From a virus, in IMG/VR virus record IMGVR_UViG_3300021142_000082, positions 1 through 38,250 of that record: a stretch of DNA of 38,250 nt. One strand, 5' to 3'. A model generated the notes under the pieces. It was given only the letters and a program-made list of their open reading frames with translations, had not been told where the DNA came from and did not search any database. Every line of letters starts with the position of its first letter. Within the stretch, counting starts at the first letter, position 1. This document shows positions 1 to 38,250 of the stretch, one piece after another. The translations under genes were made by a program, and so were the position numbers.

Positions 1-252
1 TTAATAAAATCACTTCCTGTATTACTATTCCACTTGATTGTCTTAATTGCTTTACATAGTGCTTCAAAGTTTTTATTATTTGAACCCATATAGAATTTAC
101 AAGCAGTGAGGTCAGCACGAGTGAGGTTAGCACGAGTGAGGTCAGCACCAGTGAGGTTAGCACGAGTGAGGTTAGCACGAGTGAGGTTAGCACCAGTGAG
201 GTTAGCACGAGTGAGGTCAGCACCAGTGAGGTCAGCACCAGTGAGGTTAGCA
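1..252. repeat. Terminal direct repeat (left copy)
   Basis: Matches 38014-38250 base for base except for one extra 15-bp unit here (the second tandem unit). Such end overlap is typical of an assembled circular or circularly permuted phage genome. Counting one copy, the genome is about 38,013 bp. Confidence 0.9.
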
Positions 253-4712: not shown

Positions 4713-5870
4713 TTATCGCACCAAACTAATATCAAAGTCTTCTCCCATTTTTAATCTATCTATAACAGCTTTGTCTTTCGACCCTCCTATTAAATATACA
4801 TATTGATTTCTATGTAGGTTGTGGATTCTATTTATACGAGCCTCCATCTGCACCTTGTTCACATAACTCCAATCCATACTAGCAAATATCATAATAGAGA
4901 AACTATCAAGGTCATAACCAGCACTTACTTGTGATTGTACTATTAGATAACATTCTGGACTGTCTTGTGCGTCTTGTATAATTTGTCCTTGATCTTTTGT
5001 ACTACCAGTAAGTTTAAATACTTCTCTATCCTTAAGAACTTCTGCGTAGTAGTCAATCTGTTCTCTGTACTTACAGACTATAACTATCTTAGGATGTCCT
5101 ACACTGTACTCCTTTATCCATTCTAATTTTTCTTCCCCATTCTCTAGTCTATTCTCTGCGTACCACAATTTAGTTGCTTCCCATTCTTGTCCTTTTAAGT
5201 CCTTTATAGCCTGTTGTGTCTTTTTAGTCAGTGGTATCTCTATATATTGATACTCGTGTACAGGAACATCTATGCAATCAACCATTCTCGCTATGTGACA
5301 ATGTTTATTTATAATAGGTGGCATCTTCTTTTGCCAGCCTTTTATCGGTTCATAAAATGGTCTAGGGTTGTATGGTCTACGAACTAAGTTATAGAAATAG
5401 TCTTGCCACTTGCTCCATTTTATCTCTATCCCTGCAAAAGTTAATATAGTATGTAAGTTAGCGGGATTACTTCTTACTGGTGTCGCTGTAAGTAATAATC
5501 TATCTGGATTATACTTGTCTATATATTTGTACAGTGCTTCTGATAATTGAGATCGAAGTTTAGCCACAAATAGAGGAGATGCAAAGTTGTGTACTTCGTC
5601 TACTACAAGAAGATCTCTGGCTACATCCGAACTCTTAAACTCCTCTTTAGTAATGACTGTACACTCATTTTTACATTCCCATTTTACTAAATCATCTTGC
5701 CATTTCTTTTTTATACTTTTAGGGACAACAATAAGAACTGACTTATTAGGTCTTAATTTAATCCACTCTATCGCCGCTAAAGTTTTTCCAGTGCCAGCTT
5801 CCCAACATAAGATTGCTCGTGATGGGTTTTTTTTAATAAAACTTTCTTGATGTTTATAAAGTTGAATCAT
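4713..5870 (-). CDS. SF2 DNA helicase, SNF2/DEAD-like (385 aa)
   Basis: Motif I WEAGTGKT (residues 23-30), motif Ia VLIVVPKS, motif II DEVH (91-94), motif III LTATPVR (127-133), motif V-like QVSAGYDLD, and motif VI QMEARINRIHN near residue 350. This is the full two-RecA-lobe helicase/translocase core without extra domains, as in phage UvsW/SNF2-like proteins. It probably remodels forks or recombination intermediates. Its start overlaps the end of the 75-aa gene by 17 bp, and it follows PrimPol in the leftward replication operon. Confidence 0.9.
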   Translation of the reverse strand: MIQLYKHQESFIKKNPSRAILCWEAGTGKTLAAIEWIKLRPNKSVLIVVPKSIKKKWQDDLVKWECKNECTVITKEEFKSSDVARDLLVVDEVHNFASPLFVAKLRSQLSEALYKYIDKYNPDRLLLTATPVRSNPANLHTILTFAGIEIKWSKWQDYFYNLVRRPYNPRPFYEPIKGWQKKMPPIINKHCHIARMVDCIDVPVHEYQYIEIPLTKKTQQAIKDLKGQEWEATKLWYAENRLENGEEKLEWIKEYSVGHPKIVIVCKYREQIDYYAEVLKDREVFKLTGSTKDQGQIIQDAQDSPECYLIVQSQVSAGYDLDSFSIMIFASMDWSYVNKVQMEARINRIHNLHRNQYVYLIGGSKDKAVIDRLKMGEDFDISLVR

Positions 5871-6083: not shown

Positions 6084-8255
6084 TTAAAAGTCTTCCATTA
6101 CTAATTGCTTATCTTCGACTTTAAATTCACTCTCTATCATTCCAACTGGGTACCAACGAATCTTACGAATACCATCTACTGATGTCTGTTTTTTTTCTAA
6201 CTTCAATATGTTCTTAAGCACATTAGCGATGTTCATTTCGTCGTACTTTGATATAGGTTTCGATATAGAACCAAACCCACCTGTAAATAATGCAAAGTAT
6301 ATATCTGTAACAGTTATACCTTCGTTTTTCTCGTAACTGCTTTTCTTTAAATACCAATCAACAATAAGGTCTTCGTTAGCATCTGATATTCGTCTTTTGC
6401 TTTGTTCTTCTCTAGTCTCCACATCTGGGAATTCCCACGTTGTCTCTTTACTGACTATTACTCTCTGATAAGCTTCTGCAAATAATTGGTCCCTGTTTGC
6501 TTCAAGCCATTCTAGGTTAGCACGAGGAAGAAGGGTCTTTACGGGTAACCAACGGCGATTTCCCGTCTCGTCTTTTAAGTATTCGTCCGTATTGGTAGTC
6601 ATAGCGAAAACGCAACGGCGGGGATGGTCAAGCGATATCTTACCATAAGGCATACGGTACTTGTCTTGTTGTGTAGTTATAATAGCTTTTAGTTTCTTAA
6701 CATCTGTACGAGATAGCGTCTCTCCTTCTGAAAACTCCACAATGGCTTTGCTTGAGAATTGCATAAAGAAATCCTTAGTATCTGGTGACATCGTCGTCTC
6801 AACGTGCCAATCTCTACCTAGTGTCGCTAGTGATGATGATTTTTTTGTCCCCTGTTCACCTTCCAAAACTAACACATAGTCAAACTTGCATCCTGGTTGC
6901 ATTATTCTCTTAACTAAACCTTTCATCCAGTTACTCCCTACTGCTCTATGATATAGGTTATCTTCTACGCCATAGGTATTACATAGCCATTGATCTAAAC
7001 GGGGTATCTTATCCCATACAACACTTCTTAAGTAATCTTTTGCACTATCTATCTCGTTCTCTTTTCCTACGGTTAGTACAGCGTCGTATATCATTTCTTT
7101 TTTTACTGTCTGAAATTCGGTAAATATCTCAGCTATCCTAGACTGCAATTTTAAGATATCAACGTCCTCAAAATCTATCCATTTCTTCCCGTCGTATAAT
7201 TCATACTTCCCTTTAAAGTCATCAAGTCTGTATTTACCCTTAAACTCCGGATGCTTTCTTAATACCCTGCATATATTCTCTGTACACAATGTTACGACTT
7301 TAGTCTTCTCTTTCCCTTTAAGTGTAAATAGAAAATCAAAATCAATATCAATATATTCATCTTCATTTATAGCCACCTGCACTTTGCTCTTTGGCATAGG
7401 TGGTTCGTACACAGTATCGCAGTTTTCTATCGCAAAAGTTATAGTCCTTGTACGATAGTCCTCCCGTTCTTGAGTTTTTGCCCTCGCTCCTAAAGGTGAG
7501 TTTATCCATATCCTCTCCATCTGCTCCGCATCCTTTCGTGTCCAGAACGCTAACATTGACACTAACGCCATATCCGCTGTCGACATATCGTCTCCGTAAG
7601 CTTTTGTATCACCATTATATAGTGACTGTATTTTCTTCCCATTTTTAGCATTGAACATCTTTTTAATAATATCCGTATCATTGATGTTTATATGTATCGG
7701 CGTATTTATTGTTACCGCCATACTCTTTTTCTCTTTTCCCCAAGGATAACCTACCACAGATAAGATGTCTAACGCTTCTTTCGCTGTTATTGTTCTGACG
7801 TTCTTTTCTTTCCCGTAACTGTTACCTGTCACAGTGAAGAAACGTAAAGATGAATAACACTCATACGGTGCTTTTTTATTCGCTTCAAGTTCTAATGGTT
7901 CAGTCAATTCAAAATACAAATGTACTCCCGTTCCAGACGGTGACAGTTCCATATATGTATCCGCTTTCTTTATTAGTTCTATAATATTATCTCTTTCTGA
8001 ATGTTCTATTCTGTTCGTCTGAGGATTAACACAATGGTCAATATCTATCCCTAGAAATTTCTTATCTAACCCAAACATTATGCCAACTCTGCTCTGATCT
8101 TTTATCTCAGAAAGTGTATGCCAGGTACTTGGATCGTTCGATTTTCCGAGAGGTATTTTTGACATTTTTTTATCACCATTTCTTTCGATGATTTCTTTCG
8201 GTTGCCAAGATATCCATCTTTTTTGTTCCCCAAATTTCTCAAATAATTTATTCAT
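6084..8255 (-). CDS. PrimPol / VirE-type helicase-primase (723 aa)
   Basis: N-terminal AEP/PrimPol domain: GIDID (69-73), MELSPSGTGVHLYF (102-115) and SSLRFFTVTG (135-144). A linker of ~250 aa follows. The C-terminal VirE/D5-type SF3-like ATPase has Walker A GEQGTKKS (466-473), Walker B AIVEFSEGE (504-512) and sensor region VFAMTTNTDEYLKDETGNRR. The Walker A has TKKS where GKS/GKT is usual, but the P-loop Lys and Ser are kept. It primes and unwinds DNA. As no polymerase A/B is encoded, elongation should rely on the host replicase or on PrimPol itself. It is first in the leftward operon next to the putative origin. Confidence 0.9.
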   Translation of the reverse strand: MNKLFEKFGEQKRWISWQPKEIIERNGDKKMSKIPLGKSNDPSTWHTLSEIKDQSRVGIMFGLDKKFLGIDIDHCVNPQTNRIEHSERDNIIELIKKADTYMELSPSGTGVHLYFELTEPLELEANKKAPYECYSSLRFFTVTGNSYGKEKNVRTITAKEALDILSVVGYPWGKEKKSMAVTINTPIHININDTDIIKKMFNAKNGKKIQSLYNGDTKAYGDDMSTADMALVSMLAFWTRKDAEQMERIWINSPLGARAKTQEREDYRTRTITFAIENCDTVYEPPMPKSKVQVAINEDEYIDIDFDFLFTLKGKEKTKVVTLCTENICRVLRKHPEFKGKYRLDDFKGKYELYDGKKWIDFEDVDILKLQSRIAEIFTEFQTVKKEMIYDAVLTVGKENEIDSAKDYLRSVVWDKIPRLDQWLCNTYGVEDNLYHRAVGSNWMKGLVKRIMQPGCKFDYVLVLEGEQGTKKSSSLATLGRDWHVETTMSPDTKDFFMQFSSKAIVEFSEGETLSRTDVKKLKAIITTQQDKYRMPYGKISLDHPRRCVFAMTTNTDEYLKDETGNRRWLPVKTLLPRANLEWLEANRDQLFAEAYQRVIVSKETTWEFPDVETREEQSKRRISDANEDLIVDWYLKKSSYEKNEGITVTDIYFALFTGGFGSISKPISKYDEMNIANVLKNILKLEKKQTSVDGIRKIRWYPVGMIESEFKVEDKQLVMEDF

Positions 8256-9565: not shown

Positions 9566-9754
9566 ATGTCATTTATTTATTTTATCTTAGGAGTAATACT
9601 TGGTTTATTGATTAGAGAAATCAAAGTAAAAACTCTTAATGAAGTTGAAGAGATAAAACATAATAGCGAAAATAAAGGTCATGCTCAATTCTTTGAAAGT
9701 GTATCTTTTAAAGAAAAATTTAATAAGTCTAATAATATAAGTGAAATTCTATGA
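9566..9754 (+). CDS. Small membrane protein (62 aa)
   Basis: The N-terminal hydrophobic helix (SFIYFILGVILGLLI) is followed by a basic stop-transfer (REIKVKTL) and a charged cytoplasmic tail. Single-pass, N-out topology expected. Its TGA overlaps the groEL ATG (ATGA), so the two are translationally coupled. Function unknown; coupling to the chaperonin is suggestive only. Confidence 0.65.
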   Translation: MSFIYFILGVILGLLIREIKVKTLNEVEEIKHNSENKGHAQFFESVSFKEKFNKSNNISEIL

Positions 9755-11262
9755 GTAAACAAGTTCATTCTGGTAAAGAAGCAATGTCAAAAGTTTTAAT
9801 TGGTTTAAATAAGTGTGCTGACACTGTCGGATCAACACTCGGACCTTGCGGTAAAAATATATTTATTGATGGTGGTATCCCTAAAATAACAAATGATGGT
9901 GCTACTATCGCTAACGAAATTGTTTTAGAAGATAAGTTAGAAAATGCAGGAAGTTATACTGTTAGAAATGTTTCAGCTCAAACTAATGATGATGCAGGAG
10001 ATGGTACTACTACAACTTCTGTGTTATTCCAGTCTATCGTTAATGAATCTTTAAAGAGACCAGAGAATGCAATGGCAATAAAAAGTTCTTTGAAGGAAGC
10101 AGGTAACAAAATATTAAAGATACTTGCTAAAAAGTCTGTTAAGATTGATAAAAATGATATTGAAAAAGTAGCTTTTATTTCTGCTGAAAATAAGGAATTG
10201 GCAAAGTTAATTTCTCAGATTATTGATAAATTAGGAGATAAGGCTGTTATTAATGTGGAAGATTCTCGCACATTTTTTACTGAATATGAAATTGTTGAAG
10301 GCTATGAGGCTAATGTAGGATTTATGTCATCAGATTTTATAACTGATAAACGTCAATCAAAAGCAGTTTATAGTGATATACCAGTTTTATGTTCTGAAAA
10401 GAAAATAAGTAATATATCTGATATTTCTCCAATTTTTGAAATGTTTAAGAAAGAAAATATCGGTTCATGCGTAATAGTATGTGATGATATAGACGATGGT
10501 TTGCTTGGTATGTTTGTTGCTAATAATAAAATGGGAACATTTAAAACCATTATTATTAAAGCTTCAAGTTTATTGCTTGAAGATATTGCAGGAACAGTCG
10601 GATCAACTATCATTTCTAATAGCACAGGTGTTAGTTTCCATAATTTTGATAAGGTGCATTTAGGTTATGCTAAAAAGGTTATTAGTGACGCTAATAAAAC
10701 TTTATTTATCGGTGATGGAGTAGCTTCAAAGGTATATGCTAAAGATTTGGAAGCGAGAGCAAATGGTGAACCTAATATGTACACAGCTCGTAATATGCAT
10801 CAGAGAGTCGCTAAATTAAAGGGAGGCATAGCACAGTTAAAGATTGGTGCTTCCACTGATTTTGAAAGAGAATATTTAAAGGATAAAGCTGTTGATGCTG
10901 TTAAAGCTGTTCAGTCAGCGTTAGAAGAAGGAATTGTTGAAGGTGGCGGAATGACATTGTGGAAGATTGCATCAGAGATGAAACCTAAAACAGTTGGTGA
11001 AGAAATATTAAAGAAAGCTTTAACATCTCCATTAAGGAAAATAATTGAAAATGCTGGAAAGGATTATGCAGAGATAATTAGAAACTTACCTAAAGATATG
11101 GGATATGATGCTAAAAATGATAAATATGTTGATATGATAAAAGCAGGTATTATTGATCCAAGCAAGGTTGAGCGTTGTGCTTTGGAAAATTCTGTATCTT
11201 CAGCTTCTACGTTTATTACAACGGAATCATTTATCACTGATTATGTAAAAGAAAATGAGTAA
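9751..11262 (+). CDS. groEL: Phage GroEL-like chaperonin (503 aa)
   Basis: Group I chaperonin with all ATPase residues: LGPCGKN (30-36), ITNDG with Asp49 (E. coli Asp52), GDGTTT (83-88), Asp382 (Asp398) and EEGIVEGGG (392-400). The apical region is divergent: GFMSSDF replaces GYLSPYF (losing one of the aromatic substrate/GroES contacts), and the KAPGFGDRRKA segment is shortened to KASSLLL, about six residues missing. The C-terminus ends DYVKENE with no GGM tail; total 503 versus ~548 aa. It likely makes a ring that folds phage structural proteins with the GroES encoded just downstream. Coupled to genes on both sides by ATGA overlaps. Confidence 0.95.
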   Translation: MSKQVHSGKEAMSKVLIGLNKCADTVGSTLGPCGKNIFIDGGIPKITNDGATIANEIVLEDKLENAGSYTVRNVSAQTNDDAGDGTTTTSVLFQSIVNESLKRPENAMAIKSSLKEAGNKILKILAKKSVKIDKNDIEKVAFISAENKELAKLISQIIDKLGDKAVINVEDSRTFFTEYEIVEGYEANVGFMSSDFITDKRQSKAVYSDIPVLCSEKKISNISDISPIFEMFKKENIGSCVIVCDDIDDGLLGMFVANNKMGTFKTIIIKASSLLLEDIAGTVGSTIISNSTGVSFHNFDKVHLGYAKKVISDANKTLFIGDGVASKVYAKDLEARANGEPNMYTARNMHQRVAKLKGGIAQLKIGASTDFEREYLKDKAVDAVKAVQSALEEGIVEGGGMTLWKIASEMKPKTVGEEILKKALTSPLRKIIENAGKDYAEIIRNLPKDMGYDAKNDKYVDMIKAGIIDPSKVERCALENSVSSASTFITTESFITDYVKENE

Positions 11263-36662: not shown

Positions 36663-36811
36663 ATCCTATTCCTCTTTAGAGTTGTTAGTTGATAACTGAG
36701 GTAAGTTAGGCTTATTAGATACCCGATAGCCCTTGGTATCAAGAATCGTTATTTTACTTAATAGTTATCATTATTAGATAACACTCACAAGCAACTTTCT
36801 GATGACTATGG
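36663..36811. other. Noncoding stretch with hairpins beside the tRNA-like element
   Basis: No convincing gene. Hairpins: GATACC (36718-36723) / GGTATC (36735-36740); GTTATC (36764-36769) / GATAAC (36777-36782); and AGTT-GAT-AACT near 36690. Together with the element at 36812-36921 and the ~90 bp downstream, this makes the longest gene-poor stretch of the accessory arm. It may be part of one structured transcript. Confidence 0.4.
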
Positions 36812-36921
36812 GTATGATGTACAAAGCAGGGATTGCTCTACCAGACTGAGCTATACGAGACTACGCTAGCCACGCAATAGGATTTGAACCTATGACCTAT
36901 CCCCTGCTTTGTACATCATAC
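36812..36921 (-). ncRNA. Circularly permuted tRNA-like RNA with extended anticodon stem
   Basis: Read on the minus strand, the 3' half of a tRNA comes first. Anticodon-stem strand GGGAT (36903-36899), variable AGGTC, T arm ATAGG-TTCAAAT-CCTAT (36893-36877), acceptor TGCGTGG (36876-36870). Then a 9-nt linker CTAGCGTAG, then the 5' half: acceptor TCTCGTA (36860-36854), T8-A9, D arm GCTC-AGTCTGGTA-GAGC (36851-36835), A26, ATCCC (36833-36829). All canonical positions are kept (T8, A14, G15-C48, G18G19, T54T55C56, A58). The acceptor pairs at 4 Watson-Crick and 2 G-U positions with one U-U mismatch. ATCCC/GGGAT continues as a ~17-bp helix (arms 36812-36833 and 36899-36921) with one bulged G instead of an anticodon loop. 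No CCA is encoded. Confidence 0.75.
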
Positions 36922-36932
36922 TTGTTAATGTA

Positions 36933-37310
36933 CTAACATTTTAACTTTGCTAATTCTTCTTGTATTTCTCTAATTCTTGTAAAATCCTTTACTGAACAAT
37001 CTGTTCTTTCTTTTAATTCCTTATCGAGTTTTTCTTGTTTCTCTTTCTTGCTTTTTTCTTGGAATTTTATAAATTCTTTTTTTGTTTTGTCTACTACTTT
37101 TAAAGGGATTTCTTCTATTAAGAAAGTTTTTAATCCGTAACGATAATAAGTGTCAATATCTTGTCTTTTCTTTGATTCTATTTCTTCTAATTCATTTACT
37201 AAAAACTCAGCTTCTTCCATTGATAAACAAAAACAAATAGGGTTATTATAATCACCAATAAAATTACTTACTGAACTTTTTACTAAAAACATTTTTGTTT
37301 CATTATTCAT
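36933..37310 (-). CDS. Hypothetical protein (125 aa)
   Basis: The N-terminal alpha/beta part (MFLVKSSVSNFIGDYNNPIC, FCLSMEEAEFLVNELEEIE) resembles small single-domain phage proteins that look like DUF-type ferredoxin folds, but I do not recognise it. The C-terminal half is a charged helix (KKEFIKFQEKSKKEKQEKLD). It ends 11 bp before the tRNA-like element, which is probably co-transcribed. Confidence 0.6.
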   Translation of the reverse strand: MNNETKMFLVKSSVSNFIGDYNNPICFCLSMEEAEFLVNELEEIESKKRQDIDTYYRYGLKTFLIEEIPLKVVDKTKKEFIKFQEKSKKEKQEKLDKELKERTDCSVKDFTRIREIQEELAKLKC

Positions 37311-38009: not shown

Positions 38010-38250
38010 TTAGTTAATAAAATCACTTCCTGTATTACTATTCCACTTGATTGTCTTAATTGCTTTACATAGTGCTTCAAAGTTTTTATTATTTGAACCC
38101 ATATAGAATTTACAAGCAGTGAGGTCAGCACGAGTGAGGTCAGCACCAGTGAGGTTAGCACGAGTGAGGTTAGCACGAGTGAGGTTAGCACCAGTGAGGT
38201 TAGCACGAGTGAGGTCAGCACCAGTGAGGTCAGCACCAGTGAGGTTAGCA
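38010..38250 (-). CDS. Pentapeptide-repeat protein, second copy of the 3' part
   Basis: The C-terminal portion of the gene at 1-539, repeated by the end overlap. It enters from base 38250 inside the repeats, shows 8 complete A(N/D)LT(R/G) units plus one partial, and ends with the tail ...NTGSDFIN and TAA (38010-38012). One pentapeptide is missing relative to the left copy. The 5' end lies outside the window; in the circle it is bases 1-539. Confidence 0.85.
38014..38250. repeat. Terminal direct repeat (right copy)
   Basis: 237 bp identical to 1-252 except for one 15-bp unit absent here. Includes tandem units from 38119 on. Confidence 0.9.

Follow-up and report, generated by a model that had tools for sequence, protein, structure and literature searches.

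Locus and architecture of the element

The DNA analysed here, referred to as the window, is the whole of a virus record of 38,250 bases that encodes a terminase, a portal, a capsid, a primase-helicase and a GroEL; its carrier is a tailed phage, in which the element described below is an accessory gene. The two ends of the window (1-238 and 38013-38250) match almost completely, their only differences falling within an array of 15-bp repeats, and the genome is probably complete, with assembly uncertainty in the 15-bp repeat. A GroEL-type chaperonin (Cpn60) is encoded at 9751-11262, upstream of the terminase, in a synteny kept in several kin of the phage, while the primase-helicase at 6084-8255 combines a VapE-like domain with an NrS-1 phage primase-polymerase domain (PF22763).

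Between the stop codon of a 125-residue ORF (36933-37310) and small same-strand ORFs, the minus strand carries at 36921-36812 three tRNA-type arms in permuted order (T, acceptor-like, D), and this three-arm module is closed by a 20-bp perfect inverted repeat. Read from 36921, the 5' part of the element is GTATGATGTACAAAGCA-GGGGAT-AGGTC-ATAGG-TTCAAAT-CCTAT-TGCGTGGCTA-GCG-TAGTCTCGTA, after which the 3' part continues as TA-GCTC-AGTCTGGTA-GAGC-A-ATCCC-TGCTTTGTACATCATAC and ends at 36812. The individual features, all on the minus strand, are:

36812-36921, minus: whole Y RNA-like element (the RF02553 alignment spans 36807-36923, the hit of model R1 36828-36907)
36902-36921, minus: basal stem, 5' strand GTATGATGTACAAAGCAGGG, one half of the 20-nt, 100% complementary inverted repeat
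36812-36831, minus: basal stem, 3' strand CCCTGCTTTGTACATCATAC, pairing with 36902-36921
36899-36903, minus: anticodon-stem-like 3' strand GGGAT (from the sequence; helix 1 of the viral alignment)
36894-36898, minus: variable region AGGTC, directly after the GGGAT strand
36829-36833, minus: anticodon-stem-like 5' strand ATCCC (from the sequence; helix 1 of the viral alignment)
36877-36893, minus: T arm ATAGG-TTCAAAT-CCTAT (from the fold; helix 2 of the viral alignment)
36854-36876, minus: acceptor-like closed hairpin TGCGTGGCTA-GCG-TAGTCTCGTA, containing 36861-36869 (from the fold; covarying helix in viral relatives)
36835-36851, minus: D arm GCTC-AGTCTGGTA-GAGC, preceded by TA at tRNA positions 8-9 (from the fold; helix 4)
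36915-36944, minus: weak promoter-like match TTAAAA-18-TATGAT at chance level, overlapping the start of the element

The minimum-energy fold places the 20-bp closing stem around the three arms at -53.8 kcal/mol, compared with -32.3 +/- 3.6 kcal/mol for shuffled sequences (z = -6.0), none of the 200 shuffles being as stable. The two repeat strands (36812-36831 and 36902-36921) enclose a spacer of 70 nt, and in tRNA register the basal stem consists of five anticodon-stem pairs, one bulged G and 17 further pairs. The acceptor-like stem folds into a closed hairpin of nine pairs and one U-U mismatch, in the order TGCG, U-U mismatch, GGCTA, GCG loop, TAGTC and CGTA. The letters of the T and D loops are conserved, and in such a fold the two loops should form a tRNA elbow.

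A preliminary description of this DNA had given the sequence and arm lengths as we find them. Fold and sequence bear out its T-then-D tRNA elbow in which a long helix stands where an anticodon loop would be expected, and the inverted repeat agrees with its account of anticodon-stem strands extended by about 17 further pairs with a single bulge. The 9-nt stretch CTAGCGTAG (36861-36869), which it had read as a free linker, is the tip of the acceptor-like hairpin, with CTA and TAG paired around the GCG loop.

A promoter scan of the region gave six sites against 4.6 expected, no better than chance; no terminator-like site was found in the element region, and the window genome holds no further copies of the element. 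ARAGORN found no tRNA gene in the whole window and Rfam at gathering scores returned no match in it, so that routine annotation misses the element.

Family assignment and covariation of the acceptor-like hairpin

In a low-threshold Rfam scan the element matched YrlA (RF02553) over the full model (1-114 of 114) with 43.5 bits and an E value of 1.3e-8, which lies below the curated cut-off (gathering score) of 69 bits; the other Rfam hits (tRNA, Yfr10, snoR66 and others) had E values above 1 and are due to chance. None of the 30 viral Y RNA records described below reaches 69 bits, from which it follows that the RF02553 cut-off excludes viral members generally. Control genomes likewise gave RF02553 matches below the cut-off, which we take to be neighbouring tRNA genes, and tandem phage tRNAs used as controls scored 28.6, 29.5 and 33.6 bits, viral Y RNAs mostly 34-58 bits. 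A covariance model of the tRNA-like module alone (R1), built from 24 viral Y RNAs with the window excluded, found the module at 36828-36907 with 69.3 bits (E = 1.6e-20), within the 64-79 bits of other viral Y RNAs outside the training set. As R1 scores some tandem tRNA pairs as high as 63.1 bits, the module score alone does not separate the two cleanly; the element is set apart from tandem tRNAs by its closed hairpin, its basal stem and the absence of tRNA genes.

Two features of YrlA were found in the element, namely D, T and closed acceptor-like arms that make up a tRNA-like module (fold, alignment and covariation) and a long stem in which the 5' end pairs with the 3' end, here 20 bp and perfect. 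YrlA RNAs of Salmonella, Deinococcus and others share with it the order of T arm, closed acceptor-like hairpin and D arm, the basal stem made from the two ends and the mimicry of tRNA, as well as a similar length (about 110 nt for the element, 90-150 nt in PMC8394870). The element differs from YrlA in that its stem is one unbroken 20-bp helix, whereas YrlA helices contain internal loops, in that no Ro60/TROVE gene was detected in the window genome, and in its score below the curated cut-off. Taken together, these findings leave us highly confident that the element is an RNA of the Y RNA (YrlA) class. The preliminary idea of a tRNA mimic is thereby upheld through the RF02553 match, since the layout is that of a YrlA-type Y RNA, whose acceptor-like arm is likewise a closed hairpin (review PMC8394870), while the proposal of a new kind of permuted tRNA gives way to a known class in an unusual form, Y RNAs of this kind being already known in phages. 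In short, that description had the anatomy right, left the family unrecognised and misread the linker.

Two-piece tmRNAs are also permuted, with a long helix occupying the position of the anticodon arm, but the element has a full D stem. No RF00023 match was obtained in 36700-37050 at E values up to 10, and a tmRNA was rejected.

Compensatory changes in viral relatives, which the preliminary description had proposed to look for, were evident in the acceptor-like hairpin. Across 52 distinct viral segments the six junction-side pairs were formed in 5.08 of 6 cases on average, compared with 2.76 +/- 0.17 with shuffled partners, a figure biased upward by the preselection of these segments for hairpin energy. 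In an alignment of 25 viral sequences, themselves drawn from the preselected set, the acceptor-like helix was paired to 93.5% and showed changes on both sides of each of its seven pairs. The whole structure had 92.5% of its cells paired in this alignment, against 65.0 +/- 1.5% after shuffling, and sliding the partner columns lowered the paired cells to 31-46% (by one column, from 92.5% to about 40%).

These data bear on the proposal that the element is a permuted tRNA-like precursor whose 9-nt linker is cut by RNase P/Z to yield a two-piece mimic with a free acceptor end. The T-half precedes the D-half, as in permuted tRNA genes of algae and archaea, and the spacing of the arms is canonical. 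In the window, however, the two anticodon-stem strands run on into a helix with no anticodon loop, a single bulged G is found in place of a bulge-helix-bulge, and the acceptor hairpin is closed. Neither a CCA nor an anticodon is present, the supposed linker is the tip of a closed hairpin that covaries in 25 viral relatives, and the tips of some relatives, with hairpins of 16 nt in L021, L036 and L122, are too short to provide two free ends. Cleavage into two pieces is thus unsupported, and we regard such a precursor as very improbable.

Even less credible is a functionless remnant of two adjacent tRNA genes joined by deletion. Tandem phage tRNAs do partly match the same models, but chance would have to produce both the perfect 20-bp helix and the closed hairpin of nine pairs; ARAGORN recognised no tRNA gene, flanking or otherwise, and 30 virus records share the arrangement, for the most part next to a TROVE gene. 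The long perfect palindrome, for which neither promoter nor terminator was recognised, could also act at the level of DNA, as a cruciform or protein-binding site in which the RNA-like part is incidental. The spacer of this palindrome, however, holds the full tRNA-mimic module known from an RNA family, and no other copies occur in the genome, which makes a DNA-level element improbable.

Viral relatives, the Ro60 partner and the basal stem

Relatives were collected by a pattern search of IMG/VR from which tandem tRNAs were removed and to which further patterns then added more members. At least 30 IMG/VR virus records carry Y RNA-like elements of the same layout. A TROVE (Ro60) match at E <= 0.001 was present in 20 of 30 records, 18 of them above the curated cut-off, and the TROVE gene is in most cases encoded on the strand of the Y RNA, no more than about 1 kb away; no TROVE was detected in the other 10 of the 30. 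Four proteins from ORFs near Y RNAs combine TROVE with a vWA-type domain, as in Ro60, and both TROVE/vWA proteins scanned matched phrog_850 (2/2). Both the RNA and the Ro protein have precedents in phages: Y RNAs in mycobacteriophages are cited in PMC12282133, a Ro60 relative has been described in a Vibrio jumbo phage (PMC7765460), and TROVE occurs in some jumbo phages (PMC7824862).

Compared with these viral Ro-Y cassettes (TROVE/vWA, phrog_850), the window carries the same tRNA-mimic module, as reflected in its R1 score, but has no detected TROVE partner, lacks the GGYTAY motif and has a perfect stem. Neither a TROVE match in the window nor a Ro-sized ORF near the element was found. At 20 bp, the uninterrupted Watson-Crick basal helix of the window exceeds that of every other member of the 63 viral hits, of which the next has 13 bp and most have 5-9 bp, and this helix starts directly at the tRNA-like module. 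In the relative with the 13-bp stem (L177), no TROVE was found in the two large ORFs of the short stretch examined. The basal stem is the part of known Y RNAs to which Rsr/Ro60 binds. Within 75 bases upstream of the T arm, the motif GGYTAY is found in 15 of the 20 records with TROVE but in only one of the 10 that have none (Fisher p = 0.0014, or 0.011 once four near-identical records are collapsed); as it was noticed and tested in the same data, this is an association with TROVE, and a contact with Ro is putative. The motif is absent upstream of the T arm in the window. On sequence alone, the stem in which a Ro60/Rsr-binding site would be expected is unbroken in the window, and the TROVE-associated motif is missing.

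Distribution, candidate host and possible role

A search with TerL as single query yielded no kin of the phage; kin were found via GroEL and then by TerL alignment. Neither an exact search of IMG/VR with a portion of the element nor a distant BLAST against phage records returned anything. The closest kin, L284 (TerL 66%, capsid 82%), sits on a contig that was binned into a genome of about 1.0 Mb. No Y RNA was found in 25 kin records, many of them fragments, or in the genome of L284, and these kin contain no relatives of the early genes next to the element. By its distribution the element therefore looks like a sporadic accessory gene, and as the nearest kin lack it, nothing points to selection on it in this lineage of phages.

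The L284 bin is the only cellular genome bin with a close relative of the window phage (1/397), and genomes of its group measure about 0.4-1.1 Mb. In this bin and its relatives (G058-G118), TROVE and the PNPase domain PF03726 were each detected in 0 of 61 genomes, while control genomes were positive. The single-bin link to this group as host of the window phage is weak; if the group is the host, the known machine of Rsr, Y RNA and PNPase would not be available to the element.

This matters for the question whether the element is an ordinary Y RNA, loaded onto a host Rsr/Ro60, that tethers PNPase and tunes the access to Rsr like its Deinococcus counterpart. Its family identity (RF02553) would fit, as would the existence of further viral Y RNAs with no detected TROVE, and most Ro-Y phage records keep the pair together. 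The unbroken stem, the missing motif of TROVE-bearing relatives and the lack of TROVE and PF03726 in the candidate host group, itself assigned through a single bin, speak against it, and we consider an ordinary Y RNA unlikely.

The best explanation overall, and one we hold to be modestly probable, is a duplex-stabilised tRNA-mimic Y RNA that acts independently of Ro and is carried as a phage accessory gene. The unbroken stem, the absence of the TROVE-associated motif and the lack of a detectable Ro gene make Ro-independent action the likeliest mode, a mechanism that we put forward tentatively. The fold, the kinship with the Y RNA family, a stem unmatched among the sampled relatives and the lack of a detectable Ro gene are established by the data; we infer transcription, stability, Ro independence and target of the element. 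One end of the RNA would present the tRNA-like module of T arm, D arm and closed acceptor-like hairpin, while the other would consist of an uninterrupted duplex, about 20 bp long, where a tRNA has its anticodon arm. The perfect basal stem would protect both RNA ends, and the module may engage host proteins that recognise the tRNA elbow, such as modification enzymes, nucleases or RNA-decay factors, so that the RNA would either compete with real tRNAs for these proteins or tether something to them.

Studied examples offer counterparts for parts of this scheme. The Deinococcus Y RNA tethers Rsr to PNPase, and YrlA is modified by the tRNA enzymes DusA and TruB (PMC8394870). According to PMC7790460, the tRNA-like domain of YrlA escapes cutting by an anticodon nuclease and may inhibit that nuclease by competition, a published counterpart to the decoy role that the preliminary description had proposed for the element. 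A broader proposal, which we offer as speculation and consider doubtful, is that phages may dispense with Ro60 and PNPase when they use the tRNA-mimic module. A perfect duplex would then stand in for the stem that Ro binds, and the RNA would serve by itself as a decoy or adaptor for host enzymes that target tRNAs, perhaps in a host group that has neither Ro60 nor PNPase. If true, a Y RNA with neither Ro features nor a Ro gene would separate the two modules naturally and would test the value of tRNA mimicry alone. To our knowledge, work on bacterial Y RNAs has covered very few species and has dealt with the RNAs in conjunction with Ro60. Among uncultured phages, Ro-Y cassettes are common and, because they score below the Rfam cut-off, are left unannotated, which bears on what phages gain from Y RNAs.

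Several further viral elements depart from the usual form. Tandem double Y RNA-like modules with deviating basal stems occur in phages with no detected TROVE at L072:6626-6746, L103:7315-7431 and L095:626-699. In the A3 and L121 elements (e.g. L032, L122, L121), the letters before the anticodon-stem-like strand resemble the 3' half of an anticodon loop (CTAA, TTAA), suggesting an origin from permuted tRNAs; in L121, the stretch CTTGGTAAG presumably resembles tRNA-Thr. Within a large phage tRNA cluster, L079 carries two Y RNA-like elements at 5506-5583 and 6207-6281 (R1 73.5 and 65 bits); the acceptor hairpin of the first is closed, a hint at interconversion of Y RNAs and tRNAs in phages. At L012:482-518, an abiF RNA (RF03085) scoring above its cut-off lies next to a phage tRNA cluster.
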